Assembly (NCBI GenBank): GCA_018065645.1
Contig: JAGHSX010000187.1
Coordinates: forward strand, 1 to 35,077
DNA from: Candidatus Scybalousia scybalohippi
Lineage (GTDB): Bacteria > Bacteroidota > Bacteroidia > Bacteroidales > P3
Direction of reading: 5' to 3'
Length of the DNA: 35,077 nucleotides
Positions within the stretch are counted from its first letter, which is position 1. Each line of letters begins with the position of its first letter. Below the pieces are notes generated by a model. The model did no database searches and had not been told where the DNA came from. It was given only the letters and a program-made list of their open reading frames with translations. Below, piece by piece: positions 3 to 33,372 of this stretch. The translations under genes were made by a program, and so were the position numbers.

Positions 3-57
3 GCAAGGGGAATATCAAACCACAGGTTAAATACACACAAGCATCAAATCCCCTTGC
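3..57 (+). other. Long-loop hairpin D in the early leader
   Basis: Perfect 8-bp inverted repeat GCAAGGGG / CCCCTTGC with a 39-nt loop, just before the first early gene. It resembles three other G-rich-arm hairpins in early spacers (558-634, 1407-1450, 6665-6722). Its role is unknown; attenuation or RNA-based control of the early operon is inferred. I found no convincing promoter for the early operon in the visible 1-82 sequence or in the last 10 bases of the window. Confidence 0.5.
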
Positions 58-8104: not shown

Positions 8105-8243
8105 TTGTTTAAAGCACTTTTTTAAAGTCTAAAAAATGTGAAAAAATGCTAAAAAGTGCTAAAAAATGCTACATATTTATAATAAAGTTGCACAAAAGTT
8201 GCACAATGTGTACAACGTGTGTACAACGTATTTATACAAAAAA

Positions 8244-10341: not shown

Positions 10342-10342
10342 A

Positions 10343-15400: not shown

Positions 15401-15889
15401 ATTGGCACTTGCTAAACTATCACTAGCTTTAGATGTTGCAATTCCTGCTTGAGTTGTAGCAGTTATAGCACTAGCATTAGCACTATTTACATATTGAACT
15501 AATACTTGTTCACTTTCTTGAGCAAGTGTATTAAAATCATCTGTTTTAGCTGTTGCGTTTGTGTTAAATGCTGTTAATTTAGCATCTGTATAATCATCAA
15601 TATCAGGTTTAATTACACTTTCAACATAGTTATTAATTGTTGTTGCAGCATATTGCTGTACATATTGGGTTGCAACTTCTTCTGCATATTCTCTAATTTC
15701 AGGCTTAACTACATTAACAACATAGCTATCAATTTCACGTTCGCCATTTTTAATAAATTGAACATCTAAATCATAGTTTAACTCTACTTCATCTTGCCAA
15801 TAAACCTCAAGTATTGCAGTATCTGGGTTTTCAATAATATCAACATTAATATCAGTAGAGTGTCCTAATTCAACCTCTAATATTTCCAT
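12479..15889 (-). CDS. Tail spike / fibre with S74 intramolecular chaperone
   Basis: 1136 aa, the largest gene. Domains by eye: an N-terminal virion-attachment beta domain (1-45), an Ala/Ser-rich coiled coil (about 75-190), and a linker domain ('SITGVYRVKGSVATYNDLP'). Then 'INVKDFGAKGDGVTDDTTAF' (about 330), the entry motif of pectate-lyase-like spikes, and a long beta-rich region of propeller-like repeats. The C-terminal peptidase S74 chaperone (about 990-1136) has 'INTSDERQKQDI', where the Ser-Asp begins the autocleavage site, and 'FGLIAQKVKEAFE'. It would trimerise and then cleave itself off. Receptor binding, possibly glycan depolymerisation, on the cell surface. Last gene of the operon, before a terminator. 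Confidence 0.9.
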   Translation of the reverse strand: MEILEVELGHSTDINVDIIENPDTAILEVYWQDEVELNYDLDVQFIKNGEREIDSYVVNVVKPEIREYAEEVATQYVQQYAATTINNYVESVIKPDIDDYTDAKLTAFNTNATAKTDDFNTLAQESEQVLVQYVNSANASAITATTQAGIATSKASDSLASANASASSAISAQASAEQAEEALKSITGVYRVKGSVATYNDLPSVGQKVGDVYNVLDSGANYVWTDSGWDKLSETVDLSKYALKTDLPTIAKAGVPGLVAGGNWLTVNQTTGKMECGELTKAQYDSALGYTFISKTTLNNVLKDVFTDGVIATGSTEKRTLQDRFADAINVKDFGAKGDGVTDDTTAFRNAGANIIVPSGEYVVNSLNNNIKGDGIIYCSATGQKFRAGGAFIVEDSISKEHKLGEPFFGVNDGVTNTEIYTYASRGIQGAAYVKQGNNEYLFISQTATPSSGSDAGNSCRITQFAINSDGTIRPQYIAFSGILPIGHGQGMGVTIENGEIYLWCQSAYNASLSRQYRGVTKIHWRGSLTTASDVQEIPLIPDTGVYSNYIGLTPTVSTDGKYLIAHVSGARDYMCLIWEIEGLTAYSKPIKQFIVPQNQGINTVQGKCADTNYIYFLVSTGNLYDYQAIFIYDYSGNLIKTKYIGCEKAIKGGIDSIINDTTGLWHIFENEGIYCRGGDICVVGYAVEQPFGDIVELDGINYACIRDANGTSINDKHYFQPTSKTATMTYSPNTAYKSGITKAYNNKQPFYVNDYKYVYSIGRVGDTYAEDTTLIRSRIAQYDSSNNATITAPKGNSFRLNYFNYATGKPELLMSMDYRNMYFYDRYPTGKGYIGGLHWQYDDTNQYCSLNVGTTQKAQLSLYGDNDSSNNYLGISYNNKNKLFFTKDGVAIFNISDYSSANNHGIVFTRNGMTDKRGSIYSTGSTIHYAGQDYLSLEVLDNTNTIKTSVIIGGASPYCRPYITNSTTLGDASHLWKEVFAANAIINTSDERQKQDIDVIDERVFKAWEKVNFVQYKFKSSVEEKGENARIHFGLIAQKVKEAFESEGLDGFKYGLLCYDEWEDEYENEEVTDEQAVYDEDGNEIVPAKTHIEKKLVTKAGNAYGIRYSEALALECAYQRWTLDKLKKLLKSDII

Positions 15890-17081: not shown

Positions 17082-17492
17082 TTACTCCGTAACGATATAT
17101 AATGTATTACTATCCCTAGAAGTTGGTAAAGTTGAAACAATACTAATTTTAAAATTACAAGCTGTAATAACACCACTAGCATTAGAATATACAGGTTGCC
17201 AAGCATTACCCACTGATGGTATAAGTTTATTAGCAATAGCTGTATCTACTTGCCCTTTATTAACAGCATCGGTTGTTGCTGTACCATTAGCAAGTTGTTT
17301 GATTTGATAATTACCCATACGCAAGTTACCAGCCATTACACAACGTCCATCACGCAGCATAACATCGTTTAATCCGTCAGCATAGTTATCAAATTCTTCA
17401 TCCATTCTATCCGACATAATATCAATATCGTTTTGTCTGTCTTCTTCCCAGTTATGAACTCTTGTAAAATTACCCTCTGAATCATAAGGCAT
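17082..17492 (-). CDS. Tail fibre N-terminal adaptor
   Basis: 136 aa. 'MPYDSEGNFTRVHNWEEDRQ' followed by 'NLRMGNYQIKQLANGTATTDAVNKGQVD' is the phage fibre signature (NLxMGNxxI-LANGTAxxDAVNKGQV) found next to virion-binding regions. The end ('SIVSTLPTSRDSNTLYIVTE') is a short carbohydrate-tail-like module. First gene after promoter and terminator at 17507-17586, with GGGAG right after the T-tract. Structural adaptor linking receptor-binding proteins to the tail. Confidence 0.75.
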   Translation of the reverse strand: MPYDSEGNFTRVHNWEEDRQNDIDIMSDRMDEEFDNYADGLNDVMLRDGRCVMAGNLRMGNYQIKQLANGTATTDAVNKGQVDTAIANKLIPSVGNAWQPVYSNASGVITACNFKISIVSTLPTSRDSNTLYIVTE

Positions 17493-17506: not shown

Positions 17507-17545
17507 AAAAAAAAGAGAACTAGCTCCATAAGAGCATAGTTCTCT
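17507..17545 (-). terminator. Leader terminator of the fibre operon
   Basis: On the - strand: AGAGAACTA-(bulge)-GCTC-TTATG-GAGC-TAGTTCTCT, a 13-bp stem, followed by eight T. It lies immediately between the fibre promoter and the first fibre gene and also ends the ejection-protein transcript. Confidence 0.9.
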
Positions 17546-17557
17546 ATTATGATTAAC

Positions 17558-17586
17558 ATATTAAATTATTAGTTCCACATTGTCAA
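17558..17586 (-). promoter_or_regulatory. Late promoter 2 (fibre genes)
   Basis: On the - strand: TTGACA (17581-17586), 17-nt spacer, TAATAT (17558-17563). The spacer contains GTGGAACTA (17570-17578), also present in the spacer of late promoter 1 at 30378-30386. Similarity continues upstream of -35. Confidence 0.75.
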
Positions 17587-17591
17587 TAAGT

Positions 17592-18431
17592 TTAATTATT
17601 ACTTAACAATCTTTCAGCAAGTATTGAACTTGATGATGGTATAGAATTATTAATAGTTTTATTTACAATTCTTGCAATATTTCCATCTGCCGTACCATTC
17701 AATATTCTTCTAGCTGTATTTACATCAGATAATCCAAAAAGTGCTTTTTCTCCAGCTGTTAATGTTGAACCAACTGCCGAACCGACACTTTCCAAAATTT
17801 CTCGCCAAAATGGTCTATTTTCTGCATAATTTTCTTTATTAACAATCTTATCAAGGCTTGATGCTCTTGAATACTCTTTATTTACTGCATTAGCTGATTG
17901 TTTAATTTTATTAAATTCATCAGCAGTAGCACCTCTTTTAATTACACTTAAATTGTTTGCAACATTTTTAGCATAATTAGTATCAGAGTTTCCAATTGTG
18001 TTTTTCATACTATCATTAACACCTGAAAGCCAAGCTTTGCGTTCATCTTCATTTCTAAAACTAATTTTAGGTGATTTCTTGCTAGCTGATAAACCTGAAT
18101 CATAAGAATTTTTAACACGCATAGCATATTCATATTCATTATCAATAGCTTTATATCCTTTGTCGGTTTTCAATATCTTATCAAGTTCATCCCTTAATTT
18201 TGATAAAGGTACAGTGTGTCTATTGTTACTTTTCTTTTGAGCTGAATCTATCATATCATCAATAGCCATTCTCATTTGATGCGTATGTTCAACAGAGCCA
18301 ATAGGTGCATTTGTTTCATAATTAGCAGAATTTAATGCATCTGTTAGTGCTTTCTTTTCAAATTTCGTAAATTTTTTATAATTAGATTTGAGATTATCAA
18401 GATTAACACTATTATTTCCATTTAATATCAT
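17592..18431 (-). CDS. Ejection protein, C-terminal part after frameshift
   Basis: 279 aa ORF. Its ATG (18431) has no ribosome site, and coding-like sequence continues upstream in this frame ('VENAKQSYNDYM') until a stop three codons further. So it is best read as the downstream portion of the gene at 18428-19309, joined by a -1 shift or a missing base near 18465-18475. Helical, basic and Asn/Ser-rich, with an amphipathic stretch 'VGSAVGSTLTAGEKALFGL'. Predicted internal virion protein delivered into the host envelope with DNA. Confidence 0.65.
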   Translation of the reverse strand: MILNGNNSVNLDNLKSNYKKFTKFEKKALTDALNSANYETNAPIGSVEHTHQMRMAIDDMIDSAQKKSNNRHTVPLSKLRDELDKILKTDKGYKAIDNEYEYAMRVKNSYDSGLSASKKSPKISFRNEDERKAWLSGVNDSMKNTIGNSDTNYAKNVANNLSVIKRGATADEFNKIKQSANAVNKEYSRASSLDKIVNKENYAENRPFWREILESVGSAVGSTLTAGEKALFGLSDVNTARRILNGTADGNIARIVNKTINNSIPSSSSILAERLLSNN

Positions 18432-19309
18432 ATAATCATTATAAGATTGTTTAGCATTTTCAACCTTGAATCTATATTAGGTGTTTTACCAATAATATTA
18501 TCAACATTGTTACTAATCTTACTATTTATACTATCTTTAATTAATGGCATTTCGCTTGCAATTTCATCAGATAATTTTTGACTAGCTTTTGCACCTCTTT
18601 TTAATGCTATTGTACTTTCTCTATCAGTAAAAGCATCATTAAGATTTTTAGCTAATCCCTCTGAATTTAATGCAGGGAAAACCCTCTGCACACCTTTTCC
18701 AATAGAACCTAATGTACCAGCTATAAGACCACCACCAATAGCACCACCAACTGCATTTTTAGGCAATTCATCTAGTGTATCGCTTTCAGTAGTTCCATAA
18801 ATACCACCCTCAATGGCACTTTTTCCAATCATTTTAGGTAATGATTTAGCACCTTTTAATATTAAATTACTAGCACCACCAATATTACCTCCCATTTCTA
18901 AACCAAATTTAGCAACATTGTTTAGACCACTAGTTATAGCACCATTTATTTTAGCATCTTGTTGCAGTTCTTCATCAAGCTGTTGTAAATTACCACCTGT
19001 TTTTCTATCAATCCAATCACTAGCACCAAGTGTTGCACCACTTAAAACACGACCTAAACCACTTATAGCACCTTGACCCAAACCTTTTAATCCCTCTGAA
19101 CCAACACCTTGTAAATGACTTTTATTAGCATAATCTTCGTTGTTTTGCTTAACTTGAGCAATTTGTTCAGATGTAGGGTTTAATGATGTTTTTGTTTTAC
19201 TTTTAGCAAAATCAGGGAATTTCGTAGCTATTTTATTTCTTATTTCATCTCTTGACATATCATCAGGAAAACGAACATTTACCCCATCAGGCATTCTAAT
19301 TATAGGCAT
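18428..19309 (-). CDS. Ejection/internal virion protein, N-terminal part
   Basis: 293 aa, AAGGAGG upstream. Starts with a compact beta domain ('PIIRMPDGVNVRFPDDMSRDEIRNKIATKFPDF') known at the start of podovirus internal proteins. Gly/Ala-rich membrane-interacting stretches follow ('GLGQGAISGLGRVLSGATLG', 'NAVGGAIGGGLIAGTLGSIG'). The last ten residues (KMLNNLIMII) look out of frame: the natural continuation is in the -1 frame, in the ORF at 17592-18431. Joined, the protein would be about 570 aa. Could be a real mutation, an assembly error, or recoding; no slippery heptamer is visible. Confidence 0.7.
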   Translation of the reverse strand: MPIIRMPDGVNVRFPDDMSRDEIRNKIATKFPDFAKSKTKTSLNPTSEQIAQVKQNNEDYANKSHLQGVGSEGLKGLGQGAISGLGRVLSGATLGASDWIDRKTGGNLQQLDEELQQDAKINGAITSGLNNVAKFGLEMGGNIGGASNLILKGAKSLPKMIGKSAIEGGIYGTTESDTLDELPKNAVGGAIGGGLIAGTLGSIGKGVQRVFPALNSEGLAKNLNDAFTDRESTIALKRGAKASQKLSDEIASEMPLIKDSINSKISNNVDNIIGKTPNIDSRLKMLNNLIMII

Positions 19310-19321
19310 ATTACCTCCTTA

Positions 19322-20380
19322 TTAAAAATATTCAGATGCATCTATAATATCATTGCTAGATTGATTTACACTTGATGTTTGTGGCATAGGTGTTGCAACA
19401 CTATCCATTGCATCAAGTTTTTTCTCTATTTGTTTTAATGCAGATAATGCACCTTTTAATCTTGATTTTCCCTTACCTAAAGTAACACCTGCTGATGCTA
19501 ACTCAATTTCAGGTAATGTATTAATACCTGATTGTCCTTTAGATTTAGCTTTAGCAATCAAATTGTTTTTAATATCACCGATTGTTCTTTCAAGTTGTCC
19601 ATAAGTTTCATTTTCTTGTTCATTAAAACCAAGTGATGAAGTCACAGGAACAGCACCAGCAATAGATTGCATACCAGCATAAGGTGTAAATAATTTATCA
19701 GGAGCAGAATCAATTAATGCTAATGCATTATCTATTGATGCATTATCTTGTGCTATTGCTTGTTGCTCTTTTATTTGATTTTGTTGACTTTCAACATCAG
19801 CTTTTGCTTGATAACCAGCTTTAGCTTTATCATAAGCCATATCAACACTATTTCCAGCTAATCTATTACTTGCCCAAGCTTGCTGTTCAGGTGTGTAATT
19901 TTCAGGGTTTGACATAATAGCTAAAGCCAAGCCGTCAGAAGTTTTACCATAAGGATTATTTGAAAGTGTATCTTGTGCTAATTTATTCTTATATCCTGCC
20001 AAATCCATTGCGTTTTTCTGTGCTATATTTAACTTATTCAAATCTCTTTGATAAGCAATATCGTTTAGTTTTTCTTGCCAACTTCTATCATCAGCTTTAT
20101 CTTTAACGGCAAATTGACGTGCTAGAAATCCACTAGGGTCATAAGTAGCATATGCTTTGTTTATAGCATTTTCATCACCACCAGTTAGAGCATCAACAAG
20201 GTTTTGAGTTTTTTGTTTTTGCTCTGCTATTTCTTGCTCTTTAGCATATCTATCAGCACTTGTTCTATATTGATTAAGAAAGTTATTAACGGCACTAGCA
20301 TAATCAACTTGTTGAACAGGTGTAATTCTTGTCGTATTGGCTATTTGTGATGTAGTACCTGCAAAATCTCTATTTAACAT
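19322..20380 (-). CDS. Ejection/internal virion protein (352 aa)
   Basis: Long, charged, helical protein with Gln/Ala-rich coiled coils (about residues 40-70 and 185-215), no enzymatic motif, no signal. 'NPENYTPEQQAWASNRLAG' and the C-terminal 'LKGALSALKQIEKKLDAMDS' helix are typical of podovirus ejection proteins. It lies between the other two ejection candidates. Good AGGAG start. Role: released from the head with DNA to form a conduit through the envelope. Confidence 0.65.
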   Translation of the reverse strand: MLNRDFAGTTSQIANTTRITPVQQVDYASAVNNFLNQYRTSADRYAKEQEIAEQKQKTQNLVDALTGGDENAINKAYATYDPSGFLARQFAVKDKADDRSWQEKLNDIAYQRDLNKLNIAQKNAMDLAGYKNKLAQDTLSNNPYGKTSDGLALAIMSNPENYTPEQQAWASNRLAGNSVDMAYDKAKAGYQAKADVESQQNQIKEQQAIAQDNASIDNALALIDSAPDKLFTPYAGMQSIAGAVPVTSSLGFNEQENETYGQLERTIGDIKNNLIAKAKSKGQSGINTLPEIELASAGVTLGKGKSRLKGALSALKQIEKKLDAMDSVATPMPQTSSVNQSSNDIIDASEYF

Positions 20381-20391
20381 ATTATTTCTCC

Positions 20392-21129
20392 TTATGCACC
20401 TGTTCCGCCTGAACCACCAGCCATACTACTAGCTAGTTTGCTTGCAAGTAAACCACCAATCGGGCCGCCTAAAGCATTTCCTGCTAGACCAGCACCCGCA
20501 CTAATTAAAGTGTTGGTTAAACCATTTTTAGCACTTGCATTTGCTTGGTCTTGTTGGAATTTAGCATTTGATTTACCAACACCAGTAGAGAATATATTTT
20601 GTTGATTTTCATAACCACTAGCAGAACCAGTTAAAGCAGATAATAGTTGATTAATGTAGTTTTGTTGAGCAGTGTTGCCAAAGTTACCAGCATTAATACT
20701 ATCAGCCAAAGATTGACTAAATGCGTTTTGTCCTGCATTAACAGCATTATAGCTTGCTTGATTAATTGCTTGATTTTGATTGTCTTGCAAATCATTCATA
20801 GCACGTTCATAAGCCTCACTGCCCACCGCTAAACCTTTATTTTGTAGAGCAGTAGCCAAATCGCTTGTTTGTTGCTCAAATTGTGGTTGCATATAGTTCA
20901 TATAGCTATTAAATTGAGCCTGTTCTGCTCTTTGTCTAGCATCGTCAGAACCATCAACACTAAAGTTATAATTACCCATTGCATCAGCTAAATTTTGACT
21001 AGCAGAATTTGCATAAGTGGTTAAGTTGTTTAATGTATTATCTACATTAGAAGTATCATAGCTTTTGAGATAATCCATATAATTATTATATGGTGTCATA
21101 TCATAGCTAACCTTTTTTGATTTACTCAT
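20392..21129 (-). CDS. Ejection/internal virion protein, small (245 aa)
   Basis: N-terminal helical, Asn/Gln/Ala-rich domain with 'MQPQFEQQTSDLATALQNKGLAVGSEAYERAMNDLQ' (about residues 79-114), a pattern frequent in podophage DNA-injection proteins. It ends with a Gly/Ala hydrophobic tail ('SAGAGLAGNALGGPIGGLLA') that can enter membranes, like P22 gp7 in style. GGAGG start. Next to the GNAT and tail hub genes. Confidence 0.65.
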   Translation of the reverse strand: MSKSKKVSYDMTPYNNYMDYLKSYDTSNVDNTLNNLTTYANSASQNLADAMGNYNFSVDGSDDARQRAEQAQFNSYMNYMQPQFEQQTSDLATALQNKGLAVGSEAYERAMNDLQDNQNQAINQASYNAVNAGQNAFSQSLADSINAGNFGNTAQQNYINQLLSALTGSASGYENQQNIFSTGVGKSNAKFQQDQANASAKNGLTNTLISAGAGLAGNALGGPIGGLLASKLASSMAGGSGGTGA

Positions 21130-21561
21130 TTAATTCCTCCATTTACATTCGGTTTTTAACATACCATATACATAACAGTCTGCTCCATTATCACGATATT
21201 GCCGAAGTAATCCCTCACGAGTAAATCCGCATTTTTCAACGAATTTTATGCTCGTTTCATTATCTTTGCTCACAAATAAACTCGCACGTCTGCAATTCAT
21301 TAAATCAAAAACAACCCCAAAGATATATTTTAGAGTTCTTTTTGTTGCCCAATATTTAGATGTAGAATAAATAGTCATCCATACATCAATATTAGGTCTT
21401 AAATCATTCAATATTACCCCACAAATCAGGGTTTCGCCTTTATAAATACCAATGGTTAGGTTTGCACCATATTCAGCAATATTATCGCCTAATCCAGCAC
21501 AAACCCACCTTGCAACACTTCCATCATTATCAGGCTTACAATATACCATTTCCGATTTCAT
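21130..21561 (-). CDS. GNAT-family acetyltransferase
   Basis: 143 aa from ATG 21561 (AGG 8 nt upstream); longer starts lie inside the tail hub gene. GNAT features: 'GANLTIGIYKGETLICGVIL' (beta strands 2-4), 'KYWATKRTLKYIFGVVFD' at the acetyl-CoA loop and helix position (loop motif weak), 'ASLFVSKDNETSIKFVEKCGFTREGLLRQY' (C-terminal strand and helix, the classical N-xx-S-x-x-x-x-E-K-x-G-F segment). GNATs embedded in tail clusters are common in podophages; their targets (virion or host proteins) are unknown. It overlaps the hub gene by 26 nt. Confidence 0.8.
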   Translation of the reverse strand: MKSEMVYCKPDNDGSVARWVCAGLGDNIAEYGANLTIGIYKGETLICGVILNDLRPNIDVWMTIYSTSKYWATKRTLKYIFGVVFDLMNCRRASLFVSKDNETSIKFVEKCGFTREGLLRQYRDNGADCYVYGMLKTECKWRN

Positions 21562-23101
21562 ATCTAATACCTGTATCATACCACTCAATAATATTACCTT
21601 TGGTTTTAGTCTTAAATACCACACTAGCCTTAAACCCTGTTGAGTTGTTAGCTATCCATTGGTTTTGTATCCTAGAAGTTGATAATGTACTCCATTTGGT
21701 ATCGGTTAAATTTGTTGGATGCGACCATTTAGAAACATCCCATTTAGTACCATCAATAGTTTGTATGTTGGTATAATAGTTTCTGTTCTGGTCTTCAAAA
21801 TCCATATTTGTATAAATGGTCAAAGCAAAACTTGTAGATGACCTTGTACGAGGATTTAACAAAGGTATTGTTTTTAAACTATCAGTTCCAAGGTTAGAAT
21901 AAGCTTGTTCTATTTTACCCTCAATTTGTACCCCATTATCAGAATATGTATTAGTATCATATTGATATACATAGTCATCACTTGCAAAATACATATTATT
22001 ATCAAATAAGCACCATTGATAGGAACGGATACCTGTAAATCTGCACCACGCACCACTTGTTAAATTAATAACGTGTTGCTCAAATTGGTTATTTACAGGC
22101 ACGTTAAATATTGCATATCCACGTTTAGAGTAAATAATACCTTGCCAACCTTTTCTATCTTTATTGGCAGAAGTTCTATCTAATACCAAACCACGAATAG
22201 CATCACTAAATGCAACACTTGAACTATTAGCATTTTGTAAACTCAAAGCTTTTGAAAGTGGTATATATCCATCTTGTGATATAATAACTAAATCGCCTTG
22301 ATATTGCATAATACAATTATAACCTATTGGCTCACTTAATTTATAAGAACCCACAATCTCCCAATTATTAGCAGAATTAGGATTAATACCTTTATAAACC
22401 AAACATTCGCCTTTGCTAGTTAAGAATACTGTTAAGTCATCCATACCAGCACCACCATCAACAGACCAGTTAGCAACAGCAATTAATTCGCCACCCCATT
22501 TACTAATCTGTGCAAGGTCAAATTGGTATAATTTACCGGCAATATTGCCAGCCTCTGCTGAATACCAAGCTTTTAAACTATTCTTTTCTACAAACCACAA
22601 AAACTCGTGGCTAACTGCACCATTAATAATTTTACCAGCATTAAAATTTGGATTATCGCTTGTAAATCCCCAATTTTCCAAATGCTCAACACTATCATCA
22701 TCAACGTAAAATACTTTAGGTGTTTCCTCGCCATTTAAGAAAAACAACCTATCTTTATATTGTACAGTCTGACAATATGTATTGCTAAATGTAGCATTAT
22801 AAACACGAACATTAGCTTTAGATGTGATGTTGTATGCTTTATTATTAGCAAGTGCAATAAATTGATTTGCAAGTGGTTTAGTATAGCTAACTAAAGTATG
22901 TATTGGATGCCCAATTTTAACATAGCTTTCATAACCTGAACGCAACTCAATCTTGTTATCAAGTGGGATGTAGTTATCCATTGTAATTGCATACAAGCTA
23001 TCCATAGCCGACAAGCTATCACGTTTGTTTAATCCTTTAATTGGAGCAGGCAAGATAAAATCCCTTGATTTGTTGCCCCTATTCACATTCCTTAATAACA
23101 T
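21536..23101 (-). CDS. Tail hub / DNA stabilisation protein (P22 gp10-like)
   Basis: 521 aa, all-beta. 'DFILPAPIKGLNKRDSLSAMDSLYAITMDNYIPLDNKIELRSGY' at the N-terminus is the podovirus hub signature (PAP-GLN-D-M-A--LDN--P----V--R-G). Repeated strands then predict a beta-propeller, with C-terminal jelly-roll-like strands. Such proteins plug the portal-adaptor complex and carry the fibres. GGAG start with 6-nt spacing, overlapping the upstream adaptor gene by 23 nt. Supports a short non-contractile tail. Confidence 0.75.
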   Translation of the reverse strand: MLLRNVNRGNKSRDFILPAPIKGLNKRDSLSAMDSLYAITMDNYIPLDNKIELRSGYESYVKIGHPIHTLVSYTKPLANQFIALANNKAYNITSKANVRVYNATFSNTYCQTVQYKDRLFFLNGEETPKVFYVDDDSVEHLENWGFTSDNPNFNAGKIINGAVSHEFLWFVEKNSLKAWYSAEAGNIAGKLYQFDLAQISKWGGELIAVANWSVDGGAGMDDLTVFLTSKGECLVYKGINPNSANNWEIVGSYKLSEPIGYNCIMQYQGDLVIISQDGYIPLSKALSLQNANSSSVAFSDAIRGLVLDRTSANKDRKGWQGIIYSKRGYAIFNVPVNNQFEQHVINLTSGAWCRFTGIRSYQWCLFDNNMYFASDDYVYQYDTNTYSDNGVQIEGKIEQAYSNLGTDSLKTIPLLNPRTRSSTSFALTIYTNMDFEDQNRNYYTNIQTIDGTKWDVSKWSHPTNLTDTKWSTLSTSRIQNQWIANNSTGFKASVVFKTKTKGNIIEWYDTGIRYEIGNGIL

Positions 23102-23789
23102 TTATTGCTCCATACTCATCAATATCAAAAACTCTACCACCCAAATTAATATCTTGAGTAGCAAGGCTAGTTCCAAATTTCTTTTTTAACTCTTTTTGAT
23201 ATTCGTTAAATTCTTCTGTGTAATCTAACCCATTACGTTTAAGCCATCGCCAAGTAATACCTAATTTAACAACATAGTTATCAAATATTGGCTTATCTGT
23301 ATTTTTGGTAATGGTTGCTTTATCCTCGTATGTTTCAGCATCTGTACAAACTGCATTACTACGATACATAAAAACAATGTGTAAATTTGGCTCTGGAGCA
23401 TTAACAAATTTAATGCAGTTATTTTGTATCTTAAATTTAATTCTGCCATTATCAGCCTGAAAATATCTGTCTTTCATCCAATCTTCAGGGGTAATAGCAC
23501 CTATAACCTTGTCGCTTTCATCTTTGATGTAAATTGTGTTATTTAATATAGAATAAAAGTCGCTAACAATGTTATCAATAGGATAAACAGTCTTGTTTTT
23601 AACTGTATAAATTACAGCCTCTTTAGTTAAATCTTGCCAATCCCCATATCGCATTAAACTATCTAATTCAACTTTAGCAACAGATAAAAAAATGCTATCG
23701 TTTTGATTGCTTTTATTGAATAGATTAGTCGGTCTTTGTGTGGCACAAATATCTGCCACTTCCTGACATATCTCCAATATACTATTCAT
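23079..23789 (-). CDS. Head-tail adaptor (P22 gp4-like position)
   Basis: 236 aa. Begins with a helical 'SILEICQEVADICATQRP', then 'SVAKVELDSLMRYGDWQDL' and beta strands, and ends with 'LGITWRWLKRNGLDYTEEFNEYQKELK', a helical pattern conserved in podovirus adaptor/connector proteins between portal and hub. It overlaps both neighbours, suggesting fixed stoichiometry through coupling. Attaches to the portal ring after packaging. No enzymatic residues. Confidence 0.65.
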   Translation of the reverse strand: MNSILEICQEVADICATQRPTNLFNKSNQNDSIFLSVAKVELDSLMRYGDWQDLTKEAVIYTVKNKTVYPIDNIVSDFYSILNNTIYIKDESDKVIGAITPEDWMKDRYFQADNGRIKFKIQNNCIKFVNAPEPNLHIVFMYRSNAVCTDAETYEDKATITKNTDKPIFDNYVVKLGITWRWLKRNGLDYTEEFNEYQKELKKKFGTSLATQDINLGGRVFDIDEYGAINVIKECE

Positions 23790-24324
23790 TCTTCCCCTCT
23801 TTTAATGCTTTAATTTCATCCTCTAACTTTTTGATTTTTGCTTTATATTCTTTCTCTTTTTTCGCCCAATCGCTCACACCTTTAGTAGCTTTAGCATTAT
23901 CCATAAATTGTTTAGCAATATCACGTTCAGCAATAATATTAATAGCATTAGCCTTTTCATCATCAATTCCAGCTAATACTTCAACTGTAAAAATACCATA
24001 GAATTTACAAGTTTCTAATTGCTCTACCGTTAAAAAAGCAAAGTTATTTAATGGTGTGCCATTTTCTTTTTGTTTTTGCTCCAACAAATAACGTGCATAT
24101 TCTTGAGGAAATCTATTTTTATGTTCATCTCTTGCAGGTTGGTCAAAAACATCTAAATTATCACGAGTACGAATTTCAACGTATGTAACATTCTTAAATT
24201 TAGGAAGTCCGTTGTCGTTTAATTCGTCAGTTTTAACAGCTTTGTCATAAAATCTAGCAAAAACATTGTTGTTTCTACCTTGCCCCTCAATCATTGATTG
24301 AAACATACCAAAATCCATATCCAT
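23782..24324 (-). CDS. Virion-associated protein downstream of capsid (180 aa)
   Basis: 'MFQSMIEGQGRNNNVFARFYDKAVKTD' N-terminus and a central 'YVEIRTRDNLDVFDQPA' region, repeatedly found between capsid and adaptor genes in short-tailed alphaproteobacterial phages as far as I recall. The end is a long Lys/Glu coiled coil (about residues 150-178). Possibly a head completion or decoration factor. AAAGGA start; it follows the capsid terminator. Confidence 0.55.
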   Translation of the reverse strand: MDMDFGMFQSMIEGQGRNNNVFARFYDKAVKTDELNDNGLPKFKNVTYVEIRTRDNLDVFDQPARDEHKNRFPQEYARYLLEQKQKENGTPLNNFAFLTVEQLETCKFYGIFTVEVLAGIDDEKANAINIIAERDIAKQFMDNAKATKGVSDWAKKEKEYKAKIKKLEDEIKALKEGKNE

Positions 24325-24340
24325 TTTATCATTCCTTTAT

Positions 24341-24373
24341 ATAAAAATAAGGGGAGCAGTCGCCTACTCCCCT
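24341..24373 (-). terminator. Terminator after major capsid gene
   Basis: On the - strand: AGGGGAGTAG-GCGA-CTGCTCCCCT, a 10-bp stem with a GNRA tetraloop, then TATTTTTAT. Placed nine bases after the capsid stop; such partial terminators boost capsid over downstream genes. Confidence 0.9.
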
Positions 24374-24382
24374 AAAAGTTAA

Positions 24383-25339
24383 TTAGGCATTAACTAAAAC
24401 ACCTTGAACAGATGCGTTTGACATAGTTAAGTTACCAGCCCAGCCGATAATCTTGTAAATAGCATCTTGATTGATTGCCATACGTTCGCCACCAATAACC
24501 TTAAAGTTACGGTCTTTGTGAGGACGTAGGTATAAATAATCTGTATTTAAGAAATACATATGTTTAGCAGTTGCTTTGTCATCATAAATAACGTCAGCAC
24601 CTTTGAACTTCAAGCTAGTAAAACCAGCTTCAGCCATTTTAGGGTCTGTGAAACGTTGTAATGGTGTCAAAGATTCTTCAAACAATGAATACATTGTAGC
24701 ATCAGCAGAAATCAAGTCTGGTTTATCTGTGCCACGAGTACAAGCAAGATATAATGCATCCATAGCAGGTCTAATTGTAGCAGATGTTAAAGCAGCACTT
24801 GCAACAGATGATTTGTTTCTCCAAAATTCGTTACCAGAAGTAGCACGATTGATACCCCCAACAGTACCAGTAGCAGGAGCATCAGCAACTAAAAGAGCCA
24901 AACCACCAATTTCTTTACCAGAAGAACCAGTACCATCAGCATATATAGCAGAGCCAAGAACTTCTTTGATTGTTTTTTCAGCATTAGCAATGCGTTTTTC
25001 AAACAAATCAATCATTCTTTCTTTACCACTATTTTTTAATTGGTCTTCACCAGAAATTGATACAGGAACAGCACACAATTTCATTGCATATTCAGCAGCA
25101 GTAAATAGTTGTGGGTGTCCATCTGTAATTGTATCATAGCCATTGTACCATACGTTAGAACCCTGACCCATTTCAATTTCTTCTACGATTTTTGTACCAC
25201 CATCGTAAGGTCTAATTTTTCCTTTAGCATTCAAACGATTTAAAAGAGCATTACCTTTTGTAACGTTATCAGCTAATTTTTTTGAACGATTTTCAATAGT
25301 TGTTGTGAAAATATCGTTATAATTTGCATTTCCAGCCAT
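24383..25339 (-). CDS. Major capsid protein
   Basis: 318 aa. Starts with a helix 'YNDIFTTTIENRSKKLADNVTKGNALLNRLNAKG' and 'PYDGGTKIVEEIEMG', the N-terminal arm and E-loop-like region of HK97-fold coat proteins of the podovirus type. Later come 'SGEDQLKNSGKERMIDLFEKRI' (spine helix) and 'KGADVIYDDKA', 'HMYFLNTDYLYLRP', 'AINQDAIYKIIGWAGNLTMSN' (A-domain and P-domain strands). Forms the icosahedral head with the scaffold encoded upstream. Strong GGAG and a terminator after it suggest high expression. Confidence 0.85.
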   Translation of the reverse strand: MAGNANYNDIFTTTIENRSKKLADNVTKGNALLNRLNAKGKIRPYDGGTKIVEEIEMGQGSNVWYNGYDTITDGHPQLFTAAEYAMKLCAVPVSISGEDQLKNSGKERMIDLFEKRIANAEKTIKEVLGSAIYADGTGSSGKEIGGLALLVADAPATGTVGGINRATSGNEFWRNKSSVASAALTSATIRPAMDALYLACTRGTDKPDLISADATMYSLFEESLTPLQRFTDPKMAEAGFTSLKFKGADVIYDDKATAKHMYFLNTDYLYLRPHKDRNFKVIGGERMAINQDAIYKIIGWAGNLTMSNASVQGVLVNA

Positions 25340-25342
25340 TTT

Positions 25343-26233
25343 TTATTCTCCAAATTGATTAAATGCATCCTCAATTTCTTCACGCAATGACTTTGGCTCT
25401 GATGTAGTTGGTGTTGCTTTTGCTTTCGGATTAAATCCTACTTCTTTAGCTTTTTCTGCTTGTACAACTTTAGAATTTAAACTCTTTTGTGTCTGCTCTG
25501 CAATCAACTTGTTTCTAACTTCAGGGTTAGTATAAATAGCTAACTCATAAGCTTTATCCAAATCTTGACATACACCTTTGGTTAAGAAGTCAACCATCTG
25601 CTCTCTAACATCGTTAAAATATGGATGCTTGAGGTTGCCGTTATCATCTTTAGCATTGGTAAACTCAAAAACTTGTTTATCTGCTGATTGTTTTTGCTGA
25701 CCCAAAATATAATTCTGTTGATTTTGCAACATTGACTGCATTTCTGCTAATTGTCTTTGAATAGCATTATCTTGAGGTTGCGTTGTTGTTGTTAAATTAT
25801 TTATCCCATAAGCATTAGCGATTGCTTGCAAAGCCGAAGTTGGGTCTTTATCCAAAGCATCATCAATTTGAGTTAAGTATTCAAAATAATCTTGTGCCTT
25901 GCTAAAACCTGCCTTTGCTAATCTCTCTTGACGAGCATTATACAAGTTATCACTAAACTTATAATTATTGATTCTGTTACCAAAATCAGAAAAACCTTTT
26001 TCAACTTGTTTTTCTCTCTCTGTTAAATATTTTCTCCAGTTTTGAGGCAAGTCCTTAAAGGTTTCCTTATATTCATTTGTATAGCTATTTGGAGCGTTCA
26101 ACCATTCATCAACTACTGCAGTTTGTTCATTACTAGGTTGTTCTTCAATAACATTACTTTTTTCTTGCGTTTCGCTTTGCTCATTATCAGCCGAAGAAAA
26201 CGCAGTTTCGAGTTCATCTCTCAAATCACTCAT
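25343..26233 (-). CDS. Scaffolding protein
   Basis: 296 aa from ATG 26233; the track start at 26341 lies inside the upstream gene. Acidic, Gln-rich, predicted all-helical, with a coiled coil (about residues 190-215). The N-terminal 'SDLRDELETAF' and C-terminal 'SLREEIEDAFNQFG' are near-copies, one at each end. C-terminal helix-loop-helix of this kind is the coat-binding element in podovirus scaffolds. Directly precedes the capsid gene, the usual order. Acts inside the procapsid and leaves before packaging. Confidence 0.8.
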   Translation of the reverse strand: MSDLRDELETAFSSADNEQSETQEKSNVIEEQPSNEQTAVVDEWLNAPNSYTNEYKETFKDLPQNWRKYLTEREKQVEKGFSDFGNRINNYKFSDNLYNARQERLAKAGFSKAQDYFEYLTQIDDALDKDPTSALQAIANAYGINNLTTTTQPQDNAIQRQLAEMQSMLQNQQNYILGQQKQSADKQVFEFTNAKDDNGNLKHPYFNDVREQMVDFLTKGVCQDLDKAYELAIYTNPEVRNKLIAEQTQKSLNSKVVQAEKAKEVGFNPKAKATPTTSEPKSLREEIEDAFNQFGE

Positions 26234-26435
26234 TCCATATCCTTTGTTTATAAGTTTGAACGAAGTCGTAAAACATTTTTTGTTTTTCGCCTTTTTCTCT
26301 CTCGTACTGGATTTTTTGAGTGTACCCTGTACTGTAATCACTAGCCATAGCTAGACCGCTTTCCTTGAGATATTTATCAACGTCAGCGGTACTAGTGGCA
26401 ACTTTGCCATTCGGTAAAGTAAATTCTTCAAACAT
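26226..26435 (-). CDS. Hypothetical protein between portal and scaffold (69 aa)
   Basis: Ribosome site AAGGG precedes the start two bases after the portal stop, and the gene overlaps the scaffold start by 8 nt. 'MFEEFTLPNGKVATSTADVDKYLKESGLAMASDYS' is a small helical protein with a recurring phage pattern (small virion gene next to portal). Unknown function; possibly head assembly. Confidence 0.6.
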   Translation of the reverse strand: MFEEFTLPNGKVATSTADVDKYLKESGLAMASDYSTGYTQKIQYEREKGEKQKMFYDFVQTYKQRIWNE

Positions 26436-26437
26436 AA

Positions 26438-28354
26438 TTAAAACCCTTTAACATAACCCGTTGTAATATTAGCAGATGAAGCAAGTCCTGCTTGAATCTC
26501 TTGTTGTTTCAAGTCGTATTGCATTTCTGCCTCTTTGTTGGTCATCATAACTTTATTGTCTTCAACTTGTTTTTTAAGTGCCAACTCTTCACGTTTGATT
26601 TGGTTTTGCTCTTGTTTTATCTGAATATCAGCCTGATTTTTACTAGCCTCATTTTGAACCTTTAATAATTCAGGATTTGGCTGTTCTTGTTCAGGTTGCA
26701 TCAATATTTGTTGTATCTGCTCAAAAGATTGCTCAATAACAGGCTCAAATTGTCTAGCATTAGGCAATGATATAACCACAGCCTCAACCATCTTTTGATA
26801 CAATGGCATTAATAAAGGTTGTGATTCTATAATTTCAGCACTTTGAACTATCATATTGTGTATTGTGCTAACAGTATCTAAAATAGCCTTGCCATCTGTC
26901 GCATCTGTTAGAGTTGTATCTGTTTCAATACCTAACGATAACCCACGCAATTTATCGGTTTTTAATAACTCAATAGCTTGCATAACAATTTGAGGGTCAG
27001 TATTTTCATCAACAAATTGCATCAATGTTTCAGGTGTAAATTGTTCGCATATAATTTCTGCTTTAATGCGTAACAAATCACGAATAAAACGTTGCATATC
27101 ATTTTGTCGGTCTTGATTGCGTAGTGTCCCGAAGTTCGTTTTTTTCGTAACAGCAGTGGCTGTTTCGTTAGGGTCAGAGTTACCACGCATAATATCGCTA
27201 ACACCTGTTATTTCATAAATTCTAGATATTACATCTTGTCTTTCTTGTGCAAGGCTTTGTAATGCTGTAATATATTGCTCAATAGGTGCAAAGTCTATAA
27301 TACCTTTAATACCACCAGCCTCTTTAAGCTTGTCAAAATCAGACAATGCCACAAGTGTTGTATCTTTATCTAAAATATTCTTTAGTTCAGGAAAGCTATT
27401 GTCATACGCACCGCTAACCTTTAATGCTTGCATCGTTAGTTTCATTCTTGAAGTAATACCATCTAACTCATCAAGCATAGATTTGATTTGTGTATAGTCT
27501 GGCACAGGTATTAAAGTTTCATTTGTTGTAGTAGCAAACAATGGTTTAGGCATTGGATAAAAGCCATTAATACCTAAAACATCATCACTAACCTTTAAGA
27601 ACTTGCCTTTAATATCCTTGCAGATATAGTAAATCTTTTTATCAGCTTTATCGTATATCTCATAAACATTAGTTGATTTATTACGGTCTTTATCTTCATC
27701 TGTATCAATAAGATATAGTTCAAAATCCTCGCCAAATTGCTCAACTACTTCTTGCCTTGTCATATGGATAACTCTTGCCCACCAAGTGCAATCTTCCCAA
27801 ATACCAACCTTGTCGCTATCAGCTATAAAATCAACAGGGTCAATATATATGGTTTCAACTGTTTCGCTATCCAATACTTCAGCTTGCATTTCGCTAACAA
27901 CAACATTACCCATTTCATCAACTTGTTGCATTTGTTGATTGATGACCTTAAATGTTGGCTTGTATTTTTCGTATGCTAAACCTAACCCAGACAATAAGAA
28001 GTCATTACGAACATATTTAATAACTCCGTCAAAGTCGTATTGCTCCATATCCCACGCAATAGCTTTTTCAATAATTTTACAAGCAACAGATTGCACAGGG
28101 TTATAAGCCTTTTCTTTTCTATCAACGTATGGAGTTGGTTGTTTGAAGTAGATAAATGGCTTTAATGTTTCAATAGAACTCCAAAAGATATTCTGCTTAT
28201 TACGTTTTTTATCATTTTTGTAATATTTGCGAATATCCTCAACAAGTGTGTGGTATTCTTTCCATTCTTTTTCTGCTTTTTCTATCTTTTTAAGCCATTT
28301 TTCCACGTCTTCACGTTGGCTTTCTTCATTTGTTATAATTTCATCATTACTCAT
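26438..28354 (-). CDS. Portal protein
   Basis: 638 aa, start ATG 28354 (track uses a TTG at 28357), overlapping the GroES-like gene. N-terminal helices 'WKEYHTLVEDIRKYYKND', then 'IFWSSIETLKPFIYFKQPTPYVDRK', the portal wing motif. 'DFLLSGLGLAYEKY', 'YIDPVDFIAD' and 'GIWEDCTWWARVIHMTRQEV' follow, as in portals of P22-like and N4-like short-tailed phages. The C-terminus is a long Gln/Glu/Lys barrel-like helix (about 555-620). Forms the dodecameric gate for DNA at one vertex. Position after TerL fits. Confidence 0.88.
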   Translation of the reverse strand: MSNDEIITNEESQREDVEKWLKKIEKAEKEWKEYHTLVEDIRKYYKNDKKRNKQNIFWSSIETLKPFIYFKQPTPYVDRKEKAYNPVQSVACKIIEKAIAWDMEQYDFDGVIKYVRNDFLLSGLGLAYEKYKPTFKVINQQMQQVDEMGNVVVSEMQAEVLDSETVETIYIDPVDFIADSDKVGIWEDCTWWARVIHMTRQEVVEQFGEDFELYLIDTDEDKDRNKSTNVYEIYDKADKKIYYICKDIKGKFLKVSDDVLGINGFYPMPKPLFATTTNETLIPVPDYTQIKSMLDELDGITSRMKLTMQALKVSGAYDNSFPELKNILDKDTTLVALSDFDKLKEAGGIKGIIDFAPIEQYITALQSLAQERQDVISRIYEITGVSDIMRGNSDPNETATAVTKKTNFGTLRNQDRQNDMQRFIRDLLRIKAEIICEQFTPETLMQFVDENTDPQIVMQAIELLKTDKLRGLSLGIETDTTLTDATDGKAILDTVSTIHNMIVQSAEIIESQPLLMPLYQKMVEAVVISLPNARQFEPVIEQSFEQIQQILMQPEQEQPNPELLKVQNEASKNQADIQIKQEQNQIKREELALKKQVEDNKVMMTNKEAEMQYDLKQQEIQAGLASSANITTGYVKGF

Positions 28355-28604
28355 CAATTATCACTCCCAAAAGCGAACTTTCACGCACTACAACAACATC
28401 AGGGTCGTATGTTGGCAAATCATCAAAGGTATGAAACAAAACCTTATCCCCAACCTTAACAGACTTCACATCAGAACCTATGCTTTCCACCACACCAATA
28501 TTGCGTTCATTGATTGCAGTTTCAGGCAAAATAATACCACCTTTTGAGGTGGCTAACGGCTCTAGTCTAACAAAAACTCTATCCATAATTGCGTTTGTTA
28601 CCAT
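28347..28604 (-). CDS. GroES-like cochaperonin
   Basis: 85 aa covering a whole Cpn10 fold. 'DRVFVRLEPLATSKGGIILPETA' matches the first strands and mobile loop (GGI-LP) of GroES; 'GVVESIGSDVKSVKVGDKVLFHTF' is the central barrel; 'VVVRESSLLGVI' is the closing strand. Would cap the host GroEL ring and adapt it to a phage substrate, presumably the capsid or portal, as T4 gp31 does for its coat protein. Inserted between TerL and portal with overlaps on both sides. The mobile loop has KGG where GroES usually has AGG. Confidence 0.85.
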   Translation of the reverse strand: MVTNAIMDRVFVRLEPLATSKGGIILPETAINERNIGVVESIGSDVKSVKVGDKVLFHTFDDLPTYDPDVVVVRESSLLGVIIDE

Positions 28605-29920
28605 TCGCTTGAACTCCCTTTATTATCGCTAAACATATCTTCAATAGCTGTATAACCAGCACCATATAGTTTAGCATTGTTTGTTTCATAAACAGGCTCT
28701 GCAAAAGTCAATGCTAACGCATCAGCTTTATCAGGCGAGCGACCTATTCTTTTCTTAAATTCCTCTTTGTCTTCAAGTTGTAGTTGGTCTTGAGCAACAC
28801 GCACACGTTCAACACCAGATAATTCTTCTAAAAGTTCATCATCATCAGGCAGTTGAACTGGCAACTCTTGTTCTAGCCAATTTTTAATACTATTCCACAT
28901 TTCAGCACGTTTATTTTTGTACCTGTCATTCTGTATTGCTTTGCCACCAAAGTTTATACCTTTAACGATTTTAGCAAACCCACGAGCATTTAATATATCA
29001 TACACACCAGCACCAGAGTTTCCCAAGTCAAGAAATACTTTACTAGGTTTATAATCCTTAATAAATGAAGTGAGTAGGTCTGCAACTTGTACAGTATCAT
29101 AACCACGCACAACGTGAAATTTAATTACGAGCCTCCCTTTTCTAAAACAGAAAACAGTCTTATCGTTTCCTGCCCTCGCAATATCCAAACCTATAACAAG
29201 TGGACTATTGCTCTCCGATATCTTTTGAACCATAGCCTCTCTAACCGATTTGGCTGATATCAGCTTATAGTCACCTTGTTGCATAGGCTCTCCCTCCCAA
29301 ATATGCAAATATTCATCATAATTATCACGTTTGCTTTTTTCTGCCATTTTCTTTATTTCTTCAGGGCAAAACGGATTATTATAATAATTAACTTTAACAA
29401 CCAAAGTATCGTCATCAGGGTTAGATGCTATCATTTTATACGCAGGGTCGCTAACCTCTTTTCTATTCATAGAAAACCATATTTCAGAGTTTGGTTTACG
29501 AATAGTCGGTAATAATATTTGTAAAGACCCTGTTGTAATTGTTTGAGCCTCTTCACACCAACAAATATCAACACCCTCAAGAGATTTGATATTTTGTGCG
29601 TTATGCTCTCCCAAACCTTTAAACACAAATCTAGATTTAGTGATTATATTTTCAATCCTATCATCAAAAAAAACATAATCATTAAATCCATAAAATTCTG
29701 CTCTATCTTTTAAGAGTTTATAAACTGAATCTTTGATAGAGTTTTGCACTTCACGAACGCAAGCAATAAACATTTTTTTACTTCTAGCAAGCAATAGCAA
29801 AGCATCAGCCATTGCCCACGATTTACCACCGGCACGACCTCCGTGAAAGAATTTATAGCGATAGTGTTTAGTTAATAATGGTTGGTAAGTCTTCGGTATT
29901 TGAATCTTCACTTGTTCCAT
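28598..29920 (-). CDS. terL: Terminase large subunit
   Basis: 440 aa, Terminase_3 type. N-terminal ATPase: Walker A 'HGGRAGGKS' (residues 26-34), Walker B 'GVDICWCEEAQ' (about 116-126), coupling motif 'SMNR' (about 152). C-terminal RNase H-like nuclease: 'IGLDIARAGNDKT' (about 241), 'VFLDLGNSGAG' (about 290), 'SPDKADALALTF' (about 398), which contain the acidic metal ligands. Translocates DNA into the procapsid and cuts it. Overlaps the small subunit gene by 53 nt. Whether packaging is headful or cos-type cannot be told. Confidence 0.95.
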   Translation of the reverse strand: MEQVKIQIPKTYQPLLTKHYRYKFFHGGRAGGKSWAMADALLLLARSKKMFIACVREVQNSIKDSVYKLLKDRAEFYGFNDYVFFDDRIENIITKSRFVFKGLGEHNAQNIKSLEGVDICWCEEAQTITTGSLQILLPTIRKPNSEIWFSMNRKEVSDPAYKMIASNPDDDTLVVKVNYYNNPFCPEEIKKMAEKSKRDNYDEYLHIWEGEPMQQGDYKLISAKSVREAMVQKISESNSPLVIGLDIARAGNDKTVFCFRKGRLVIKFHVVRGYDTVQVADLLTSFIKDYKPSKVFLDLGNSGAGVYDILNARGFAKIVKGINFGGKAIQNDRYKNKRAEMWNSIKNWLEQELPVQLPDDDELLEELSGVERVRVAQDQLQLEDKEEFKKRIGRSPDKADALALTFAEPVYETNNAKLYGAGYTAIEDMFSDNKGSSSEW

Positions 29921-30254
29921 CTGTTACATCCACAAATTCAACAAGAGCCTGTTTTATGTTGATGTTAGCATCTACCTCTTGTTTATCAGGTAGTTTTATC
30001 ATTTTTAATAGTTCAATCATTGGCTTTGGGTCGCCAAGAGCAAGATTATTCATAGCACCTTGCACAGCCTTATCTGGTGCATCAACTTCAAGCAATTTCT
30101 TTGTTAAGTCCTCAAATAGTCGCTTTCTTGCAGTTGCCATTTCCCAACCTTTACTTTTAGCCTCTGGCGATGGTTGATATTCAGAACTAAATCTTTTGCC
30201 ACAATAAGGGTCAATGACGTGTCGTTTCTTCGTTGTTTTATTTTCATCAGCCAT
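29868..30254 (-). CDS. terS: Terminase small subunit (putative)
   Basis: 128 aa from ATG 30254 (GGAA 11 nt upstream, after the leader terminator); the track start at 30293 lies in the terminator. Basic N-terminus 'KKRHVIDPYCGKRFSSEYQPSPEAKSKGWE', then helical 'RLFEDLTKKLLEVDAPDKAVQGAMNNLALGDPKPMIELLKMI', as in small terminases that recognise packaging sites. Acidic C-terminal tail. Identity rests largely on position before TerL; the SxxAKxxG/W segment resembles other TerS-like proteins. Confidence 0.75.
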   Translation of the reverse strand: MADENKTTKKRHVIDPYCGKRFSSEYQPSPEAKSKGWEMATARKRLFEDLTKKLLEVDAPDKAVQGAMNNLALGDPKPMIELLKMIKLPDKQEVDANINIKQALVEFVDVTDGTSEDSNTEDLPTIIN

Positions 30255-30270
30255 AGTAATTATTCCTAAC

Positions 30271-30296
30271 AAAAAAGGGACACATTTCTGCATCCC
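30271..30296 (-). terminator. Leader terminator of the terminase operon (tR'-like)
   Basis: On the - strand: GGGATGCA-GAAA-TGTGTCCC (8 bp, GNRA loop) followed by TTTTTT, about 60 nt after the predicted start of late promoter 1 and before TerS. Transcription of all head genes must pass it. Confidence 0.85.
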
Positions 30297-30364
30297 ATAT
30301 TTTAACTAACTTTTTGAGGATAACGTAATTCAAGCTATAAAGCCTAATATTCCATTATGGTTAC

Positions 30365-30393
30365 ATTGTAAAATAGCTAGTTCCACTTGTCAA
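30365..30393 (-). promoter_or_regulatory. Late promoter 1 (terminase operon)
   Basis: On the - strand: perfect TTGACA (30388-30393), 17-nt spacer, TACAAT (30365-30370). The spacer contains GTGGAACTA (30378-30386), as in late promoter 2. It overlaps the stop codon of the small gene at 30390-30536. Confidence 0.8.
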
Positions 30394-31276: not shown

Positions 31277-31708
31277 TTATTTCCATAATGTTAATTGCTT
31301 GCGATTTTTTTGCTTTCTGTGGGGTTTAATGTAATATTTGATAAGTTCATCTAGACCAAGACAAAGTAACGTTGCTAGGTAAGTTTTTTGCCTTGCTACG
31401 TCCCAACGTGAGCCTTTAATTCTAAATGGCTTATCTTCACAACATATCCAACGTACATATGACCTATATTGTGGTGGTATAGAGTTAAATGCTCTACAAA
31501 ATCTCTCTAGTGCCTCCATAGTATAAGAACTTGTTACATTACCACCATCAACCCTAGGTTTAGCATAGTCTGTTGCTTTGGCGGTTGTGCCTGCAATATC
31601 AAAGTCATTACGCAAACGAACAGCTATGTTAAGTCTATCTGTTGGGGTATTACGTGGACTTCCATATTTCAGCCAACCACCATCAAACAAGTCCTTTATT
31701 GCTGTCAT
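31277..31708 (-). CDS. DUF6456-like protein
   Basis: 143 aa. 'RLNIAVRLRNDFDIAGTTAKATDYAKPRVDGGN' (about residues 25-57), 'ALERFCRAFNSIPPQYRSYVRWICCED' (about 65-91) and 'ATLLCLGLDELIKYY' reproduce the order of elements in DUF6456, a domain I associate with alphaproteobacteria and their phages. 'RWICCED' is the most telling. Function unknown; predicted helical and possibly DNA-binding. AGGGAG start. The C-terminal tail is strongly basic. Supports an alphaproteobacterial host. Confidence 0.6.
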   Translation of the reverse strand: MTAIKDLFDGGWLKYGSPRNTPTDRLNIAVRLRNDFDIAGTTAKATDYAKPRVDGGNVTSSYTMEALERFCRAFNSIPPQYRSYVRWICCEDKPFRIKGSRWDVARQKTYLATLLCLGLDELIKYYIKPHRKQKNRKQLTLWK

Positions 31709-32805: not shown

Positions 32806-33372
32806 TTACTCCCTAACGAAAAATGAACTTGTGTCGTAAGTTTGTGTCATATCATAACCAAGAGTAATAAGGTCATTTTTAGACTGAAACTCATACTCTT
32901 TACCTAACACCTCTTTTGAAACATCAATAAGCACATCGTCAAAATCAGCTTTGCAAGGGTTGATTTTATTTACAATGTTTGGATATTGACCACTTCTGAT
33001 GCGATATAGTGCCATAGTGTAGATATATTTGTTGTGATGGCATTGCCCTGCTTTCACATCTTCATTAAAATATTGTACATCAATATCAGGTAAATATGCT
33101 GGCAACTTCTCACGTTCTTTATCTTCCTTAATCCCTTTTGCGTTAATCATTGCGATTATTTGCGAAACATTAGGTTTAGTTTTAGATGACTTAAATCTCC
33201 AATATTCATCAATAGCAGAGATAACCTCATCTGTATCATAGTTTGCAAAAGCATCGTTCCACTTATTGACTTTTGTCGGATGCTCTAAAGCTAACTGTTC
33301 TATTTTTTCTGGGTCAGGCTCTTTGTCATAAAGTTCAGAGATGTGTTGTAAGATATAAATAGCTTTCATCAC
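32806..33372 (-). CDS. Helicase-loader-like replication protein (putative)
   Basis: 188 aa. N-terminal helical domain 'ILQHISELYDKEPDPEKIEQLALEHPTKVNKWNDAFANYDTDEVISAIDEYWRFKSSKTKPNVSQIIAMI' resembles the G39P/helicase-loader N-terminal fold: W in the middle, repeated A-x-x-x-Y helix, then a P-x-x-x-I segment. The C-terminal region is unlike known loaders, with His/Cys (CHHNKY). Overlaps the DUF6291 gene. Delivery of host DnaB to the phage origin is a reasonable inference from neighbours. Confidence 0.5.
   Translation of the reverse strand: MMKAIYILQHISELYDKEPDPEKIEQLALEHPTKVNKWNDAFANYDTDEVISAIDEYWRFKSSKTKPNVSQIIAMINAKGIKEDKEREKLPAYLPDIDVQYFNEDVKAGQCHHNKYIYTMALYRIRSGQYPNIVNKINPCKADFDDVLIDVSKEVLGKEYEFQSKNDLITLGYDMTQTYDTSSFFVRE

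Follow-up and report, generated by a model that had tools for sequence, protein, structure and literature searches.

Paired late promoters of a temperate phage with a Q-like layout, and a GafZ-like protein as candidate antiterminator

How would RNA polymerase reach the late genes of a temperate phage when each of two strong late promoters is followed by a terminator before the first gene, and which phage protein might carry it past? The question is raised by an entire 35,077-bp contig of such a phage, referred to here as the window. Promoter-loaded antitermination has been described for lambdoid Q proteins, for AlpA and, recently, for GafZ in one gene transfer agent (GTA). At lambda pR', the Q-binding element lies between the -35 and -10 elements, and the terminator tR' stands in the leader.

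We consider it fairly likely that P2, and here also P1, are strong host-sigma70 late promoters under Q-like processive antitermination, with the GafZ-like product of gene 31277-31708 as loader (Table 1). From the anatomy and its conservation in relatives, both described below, we predict initiation, pausing, binding, loading and read-through, and the part of the GafZ-like protein in them, as follows. Host RNA polymerase would initiate at P1 and P2 unaided, sigma region 2 would re-bind CATAAT so that polymerase pauses, and transcription that lacks the phage factor would go no further than the terminator in the leader. The GafZ-like protein would bind the spacer element and join the paused polymerase, and the modified polymerase would then pass leader and internal terminators into the head, tail, fibre and lysis genes.

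Promoters and leader terminators of the window

The earlier note on this DNA, made from the sequence alone, had described two promoters and, between each of them and its first gene, a strong intrinsic terminator; the sequence confirms both promoters, on the minus strand, and the terminators are found where it had placed them. The element GTGGAACTA, reported from both spacers, is present in exactly two copies in the window, both inside the spacers of P1 and P2. The additional similarity that had been seen upstream of the -35 elements looks, by inspection, like little beyond shared A+T richness. A feature at the start site of both promoters, the -10-like hexamer CATAAT, had been overlooked; its distance from GTGGAACTA is equal in P1 and P2, and the distances to the -35 and -10 elements differ by one base.

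Table 1. Coordinates of features in the window
Feature	Position	Strand	Remarks
Repressor-like gene	6009-6437	+	
Integrase	6896-7912	+	
Lysozyme	9874-10455	-	
Sigma-region-4-like small protein	12118-12390	-	candidate of the earlier note, now a rival
Tail spike	12479-15889	-	
First gene after P1, tail-fibre-like	17082-17492	-	
P1 leader terminator	17507-17545	-	14-pair hairpin and U-run; -17.9 kcal/mol, z -5.1
CATAAT of P1, -10-like hexamer	17546-17551	-	about +1 to +6 of the inferred start
P1, second late promoter, ahead of fibre genes	17558-17586	-	TTGACA-17-TAATAT; -35 17586-17581, -10 TAATAT 17563-17558
GTGGAACTA in P1 spacer	17570-17578	-	exact copy
Amidase	21536-23101	-	
Terminator after major capsid gene	24350-24373	-	27 nt ahead of next gene; conserved in relatives
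Major capsid	24383-25339	-	
Portal	26438-28357	-	
Terminase large subunit (TerL)	28598-29920	-	
First late gene after P2	29868-30254	-	stands in the place of a terminase small subunit gene; probable start 30254 (start and identity judged by sequence and position)
P2 leader terminator	30271-30296	-	GGGAUGCA-GAAA-UGUGUCCC-U6, 8-pair stem; -11.5 kcal/mol, z -5.0
CATAAT of P2, -10-like hexamer, proposed sigma-dependent pause element	30354-30359	-	about -1 to +5 of the inferred start
P2, late promoter ahead of terminase/head genes	30365-30393	-	TTGACA-17-TACAAT; -35 30393-30388, -10 TACAAT 30370-30365
GTGGAACTA in P2 spacer, proposed loading element	30378-30386	-	exact copy; binding inferred
GafZ-like (DUF6456) protein, 143 aa, proposed antiterminator	31277-31708	-	a little upstream of P2

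Taken alone, the hexamers are unremarkable in so A+T-rich a window (2 found against 2.7 expected). The ungapped identity of P1 and P2 downstream of the -35 element is 27/40, a value reached by 5e-5 of dinucleotide-shuffled pairs. A composite scan, combining TTGACA, 16-18 nt, a -10 element, a second -10-like hexamer just downstream and a terminator, returned two sites in 35 kb, P1 and P2 only; 200 shuffled windows averaged 0.11 sites, with at least two in 2/200. Family searches with the first late gene after P2 gave no match, nor was there a match in Rfam.

These counts bear on the simplest alternative, in which the hairpins merely end upstream transcription, the promoters are ordinary and the resemblance to antitermination is accidental. 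P1 and its hairpin do have a late gene on either side, a setting in which a terminator serving the upstream gene would be nothing unusual, but the hairpins stand downstream of the start sites (that of P1 begins about 6 nt past the inferred start) and so also act on the P1 and P2 transcripts. With the composite rare in shuffles and the layout recurring in relatives above all controls, we regard this alternative as very improbable. The Q-like reading of the anatomy, by comparison of sequences, appears well supported.

Recurrence of the layout in related prophages

The comparison comprised 48 loci, the window included, each with a homologue of gene 31277-31708 upstream of the late operon. A promoter of the form TTGAC[AT]-16..18, followed by a hairpin-T terminator, was found between this homologue and the first late gene in 45/48 loci. 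In the control stretches the pair was present in 2/48 when the antisense strand was read, in 1/40 located upstream and in 0/41 located further downstream; adding the second -10-like hexamer left 40/48 loci against 0/129 control stretches. Among late sites with a 17-nt spacer, 34/38 carry the hexamer after the -10 element, compared with 22/184 other such sites. Since the per-locus counts take in related sequences, the conservative figure is the count by sequence cluster, 14/15 with the hexamer against 7.5 ± 1.7 in shuffles. The fibre promoter P1 has no counterpart that could be found in the relatives.

The earlier note had proposed searching the late promoters of relatives for GTGGAACTA, and these turned out to carry other spacer elements: ACCCGTCGGGT in the L227 group of loci, CGGTGACACCG in L231, CAGGGGTCACCCCTG in L326, GGTNACC in many of L237-L299 and CGGGGAAAA-like sequences in the relatives of class C. 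GTGGAACTA is the window's own, lineage-specific element. Dyad symmetry of the spacers exceeds that of shuffles in sum (25 clusters, P 0.0015), and a palindrome is individually clear only in a few, the L227, L231 and L326 groups; the symmetry of GTGGAACTA is weak (P 0.19 in the window). Locus L327, whose GafZ-like protein is 37% identical, has the P2 leader stretch AGGCTTTATAGCTT in common with the window. The Q-like design that the note had read from the window has firmer support in its anatomy than the note could give, with a second -10-like element present and the layout found in dozens of related prophages; the protein it named is probably wrong.

A wide distribution of GTGGAACTA was considered and rejected, as the pattern TTGACAN{1,3}GTGGAACTA matches more than 100 viral contigs, which by our own estimate is the chance range for 15 fixed bases in a collection of this kind; the fuller GTGGAACTA promoter pattern had zero matches in the viral contig collection. 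Additionally, the gene that comes first behind the late promoter in L239 (9653-9937), and the one at the equivalent position in L237-L301, appear GroES-like by eye.

Downstream of the leaders, 64/73 loci have a hairpin-T terminator behind the capsid gene, the median gap to the following start being 25.5 nt; other tested gene junctions have a terminator in roughly 4-26%. So short a gap leaves little room for a new promoter, and the genes behind this terminator would most simply be reached by read-through. The arrangement fits a processive factor, but also a partial terminator that sets stoichiometry. Terminators behind capsid genes are a common means to that end, which favours a rival explanation dispensing with an antiterminator: the hairpins would be partial terminators or mRNA-stabilising structures setting protein ratios, and the spacer motif an activator or repressor site. 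The homologues of the fibre gene, which have a terminator in 15/57 loci, in most of these with no visible promoter, point in the same direction. Promoters with near-consensus -35 and -10 elements, however, would seem to have no need of an activator. For the operator of a lysogeny repressor one would expect copies near the immunity genes, and that role for GTGGAACTA was rejected, the window containing no copies beyond the two late promoters. The rival also leaves the -10-like hexamer unexplained, though this lies far above controls, and we judge it a poor prospect.

The candidate loading protein

The earlier note had proposed as antiterminator the sigma-region-4-like protein of gene 12118-12390. 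Its profile matches (TIGR02937, E 3e-6; PF04545, weak) all fall under the cut-offs where these are given. A Q-like mechanism with this product as loader, or with a small protein such as that of the 48-aa ORF ending at P2, gains from the weak matches of 12118-12390 to PHROG 79 (Q-like) and to sigma region 4, and from the sigma-like helix-turn-helix that GafZ is said to contain. The gene sits, however, within the late operon behind a promoter-like site of its own (12449-12421), and a tblastn search with its protein gave no match in the relatives searched, though these have the same layout; the GafZ-like gene, by contrast, precedes the late promoter in 48/48 loci. As a proposal for the antiterminator, 12118-12390 is probably wrong. 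The relatives of class C, which pair the same anatomy with an adjoining protein of no detectable similarity to the GafZ-like one, lend some weight to another loader, and they mean that the layout alone does not identify it. On balance, a loader other than the GafZ-like protein seems unlikely.

A second protein family, unnamed and with a RHGWA..N motif near its C terminus, was observed at L240 (7621-8070) and also in L255, L256, L257, L261, L270, L277, L279 and L285, occupying the usual place of the GafZ-like gene ahead of late promoters with this anatomy; it is possibly another antiterminator, or a very diverged one.

Judged by sequence and position, gene 31277-31708 is the better candidate. 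Its protein matches DUF6456 at E 5e-5 and 23.8 bits, under the curated cut-off of 26.3, and a match at E 0.01 or better was obtained for 20/34 homologues (best 5.7e-8); among 14 control genomes, DUF6456 was found in Caulobacter vibrioides only. GafA is annotated as DUF6456 (PMC9765227; PMC9638019), and in Caulobacter it is split, GafY resembling DnaA domain IV (PMC9632790) and GafZ the C-terminal part of GafA (PMC11150451). Since GafY is the DnaA-like part, we infer that DUF6456 denotes the GafZ part. GafZ depends on a nearly palindromic sequence in the spacer between -35 and -10; it moves along with RNA polymerase and permits terminator read-through, and its authors found no similarity to Q or AlpA (PMC11150451).

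The structure of the 31277-31708 protein is predicted with good confidence (pLDDT 85.5) and is all-helical, with no significant match in the PDB (best E 0.13 by sequence, 0.64 by fold). It has no match in PHROG or NCBIfam and no detected similarity to Q protein families, and is therefore grouped with Q by its proposed mode of action rather than by homology; IMG/VR yielded no close relatives of the gene. Against our preferred explanation, with the GafZ-like protein as loader, count its score below the cut-off, a fold matching no solved antiterminator, the absence of similarity between class C and GafZ-like proteins, the weak symmetry of GTGGAACTA and a P1 without counterpart.

Pfam scans of selected window proteins revealed no GafY-like partner, and the host genomes of eight relatives each encode one over-cut-off Bac_DnaA_C protein, of DnaA size. 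A perfect DnaA box, TTATCCACA, absent from the window, occurs in one orientation upstream of 28/59 late promoters (permuted 9-mers average 0.03), at fixed distances of -12 to -14, -23/-26 or -92 to -97 from the start of the -35 element; these promoters lie within L205-L292, for example L240, L256, L280 and L227. DnaA itself may touch the late promoters, because GafY is DnaA-domain-IV-like and only the host DnaA was found in the eight host genomes.

Known systems and the source of the phage

The closest parallel is the GafZ/GafY system of the Caulobacter crescentus GTA (PMC11150451), whose GafZ is probably of the same family as the proposed protein (DUF6456, weak match). In each case the late-cluster promoter has an element in its spacer, which in the window is a proposed loading element, the cluster contains terminators that polymerase would have to pass, and the setting is alphaproteobacterial. 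The window differs in representing a temperate phage with a second matched promoter and in its weakly symmetric GTGGAACTA where GafZ has a palindrome; its terminator is promoter-proximal, whereas that of the GTA follows the first gene. The -35 element is degenerate in the GTA and of consensus form in the phage, so that GafY-type activation seems unneeded here; no GafY-like gene is recognised among the window proteins scanned.

Q and AlpA depend on two elements, one in the spacer and one resembling a -10 sequence, the latter causing sigma to halt polymerase in a pause (PMC9371919). The systems of lambda Q at pR' and of the Q proteins of phages 21 and 82 resemble the window in having an element in the spacer and, around the start site, a -10-like hexamer, proposed as a pause element in the window; a leader terminator and a regulator gene slightly upstream of the late promoter are further likenesses to pR'. 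In the lambda region after Q that was compared, AACGAT and then GGG lie past pR'. The phage leaders (about 45 and 88 nt) are much shorter than that of lambda, there are two promoters, and the proposed protein has no detected similarity to Q families. The alpB promoter of Pseudomonas aeruginosa, acted on by AlpA (PMC9371919, PMC7969949), likewise has a short spacer element and a downstream intrinsic terminator, and its -10-like CACGAT at -1 to +5 (PMC9371919) corresponds to CATAAT at about the same place in P2. It differs in serving a host cell-lysis operon, in its protein family and in being described as one promoter. Additionally, the late leader hairpin of L231, GGTGGTGAAG...AGAGGCAGGCGCTCACCACC, resembles the lambda pR' leader hairpin, GGTAGTGAG...AGAGGCGGCGCTTACTACC, which may be coincidence.

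A broader proposal is more tentative, and we hold it to be possible but somewhat less probable than not: GafZ/DUF6456 proteins would be the late antiterminators of a widespread lineage of alphaproteobacterial gut prophages. They would form a further Q-type class whose spacer elements have been re-specified many times, and the GTA regulator would share their descent; in about half of the relatives, late transcription would in addition be coupled to DnaA by one DnaA box standing at a set distance from -35. A prophage lineage in which GafZ-like genes adjoin dozens of late promoters that can be aligned would supply a counterpart, among phages, to the GTA regulator. It would also provide many natural pairs of protein and site from which specificity could be worked out, and would allow a direct test of whether loading of the Q type, through spacer and pause element, evolved more than once on proteins unrelated to each other.

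The portal and capsid proteins place the phage among prophages of gut and rumen Alphaproteobacteria metagenome-assembled genomes (MAGs), and INPHARED contains no near DNA relatives. The 16S of the assembly holding the window is Bacteroidales-like by our own reading of the sequence, the GafZ-like gene is in no other genome among 190 of the assembly's family, and it is present in 60/153 genomes of the order of one alphaproteobacterial relative; the phage contig was therefore probably misbinned into a Bacteroidales MAG. A Bacteroidales system was considered and rejected, the relatives of the phage being all alphaproteobacterial.

Two groups of repeats were also observed in the window. At 33542-33610, within gene 33369-33920, a 23-nt inverted-repeat unit, TAGGGGTTGTTTTATTAACCCCA, stands in three tandem copies adjoined by CATTTA-type repeats. 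Beside the integrase gene, repeats with GTTGCACAA at 7943-7966 and 8184-8207 are possible recombination arm sites.
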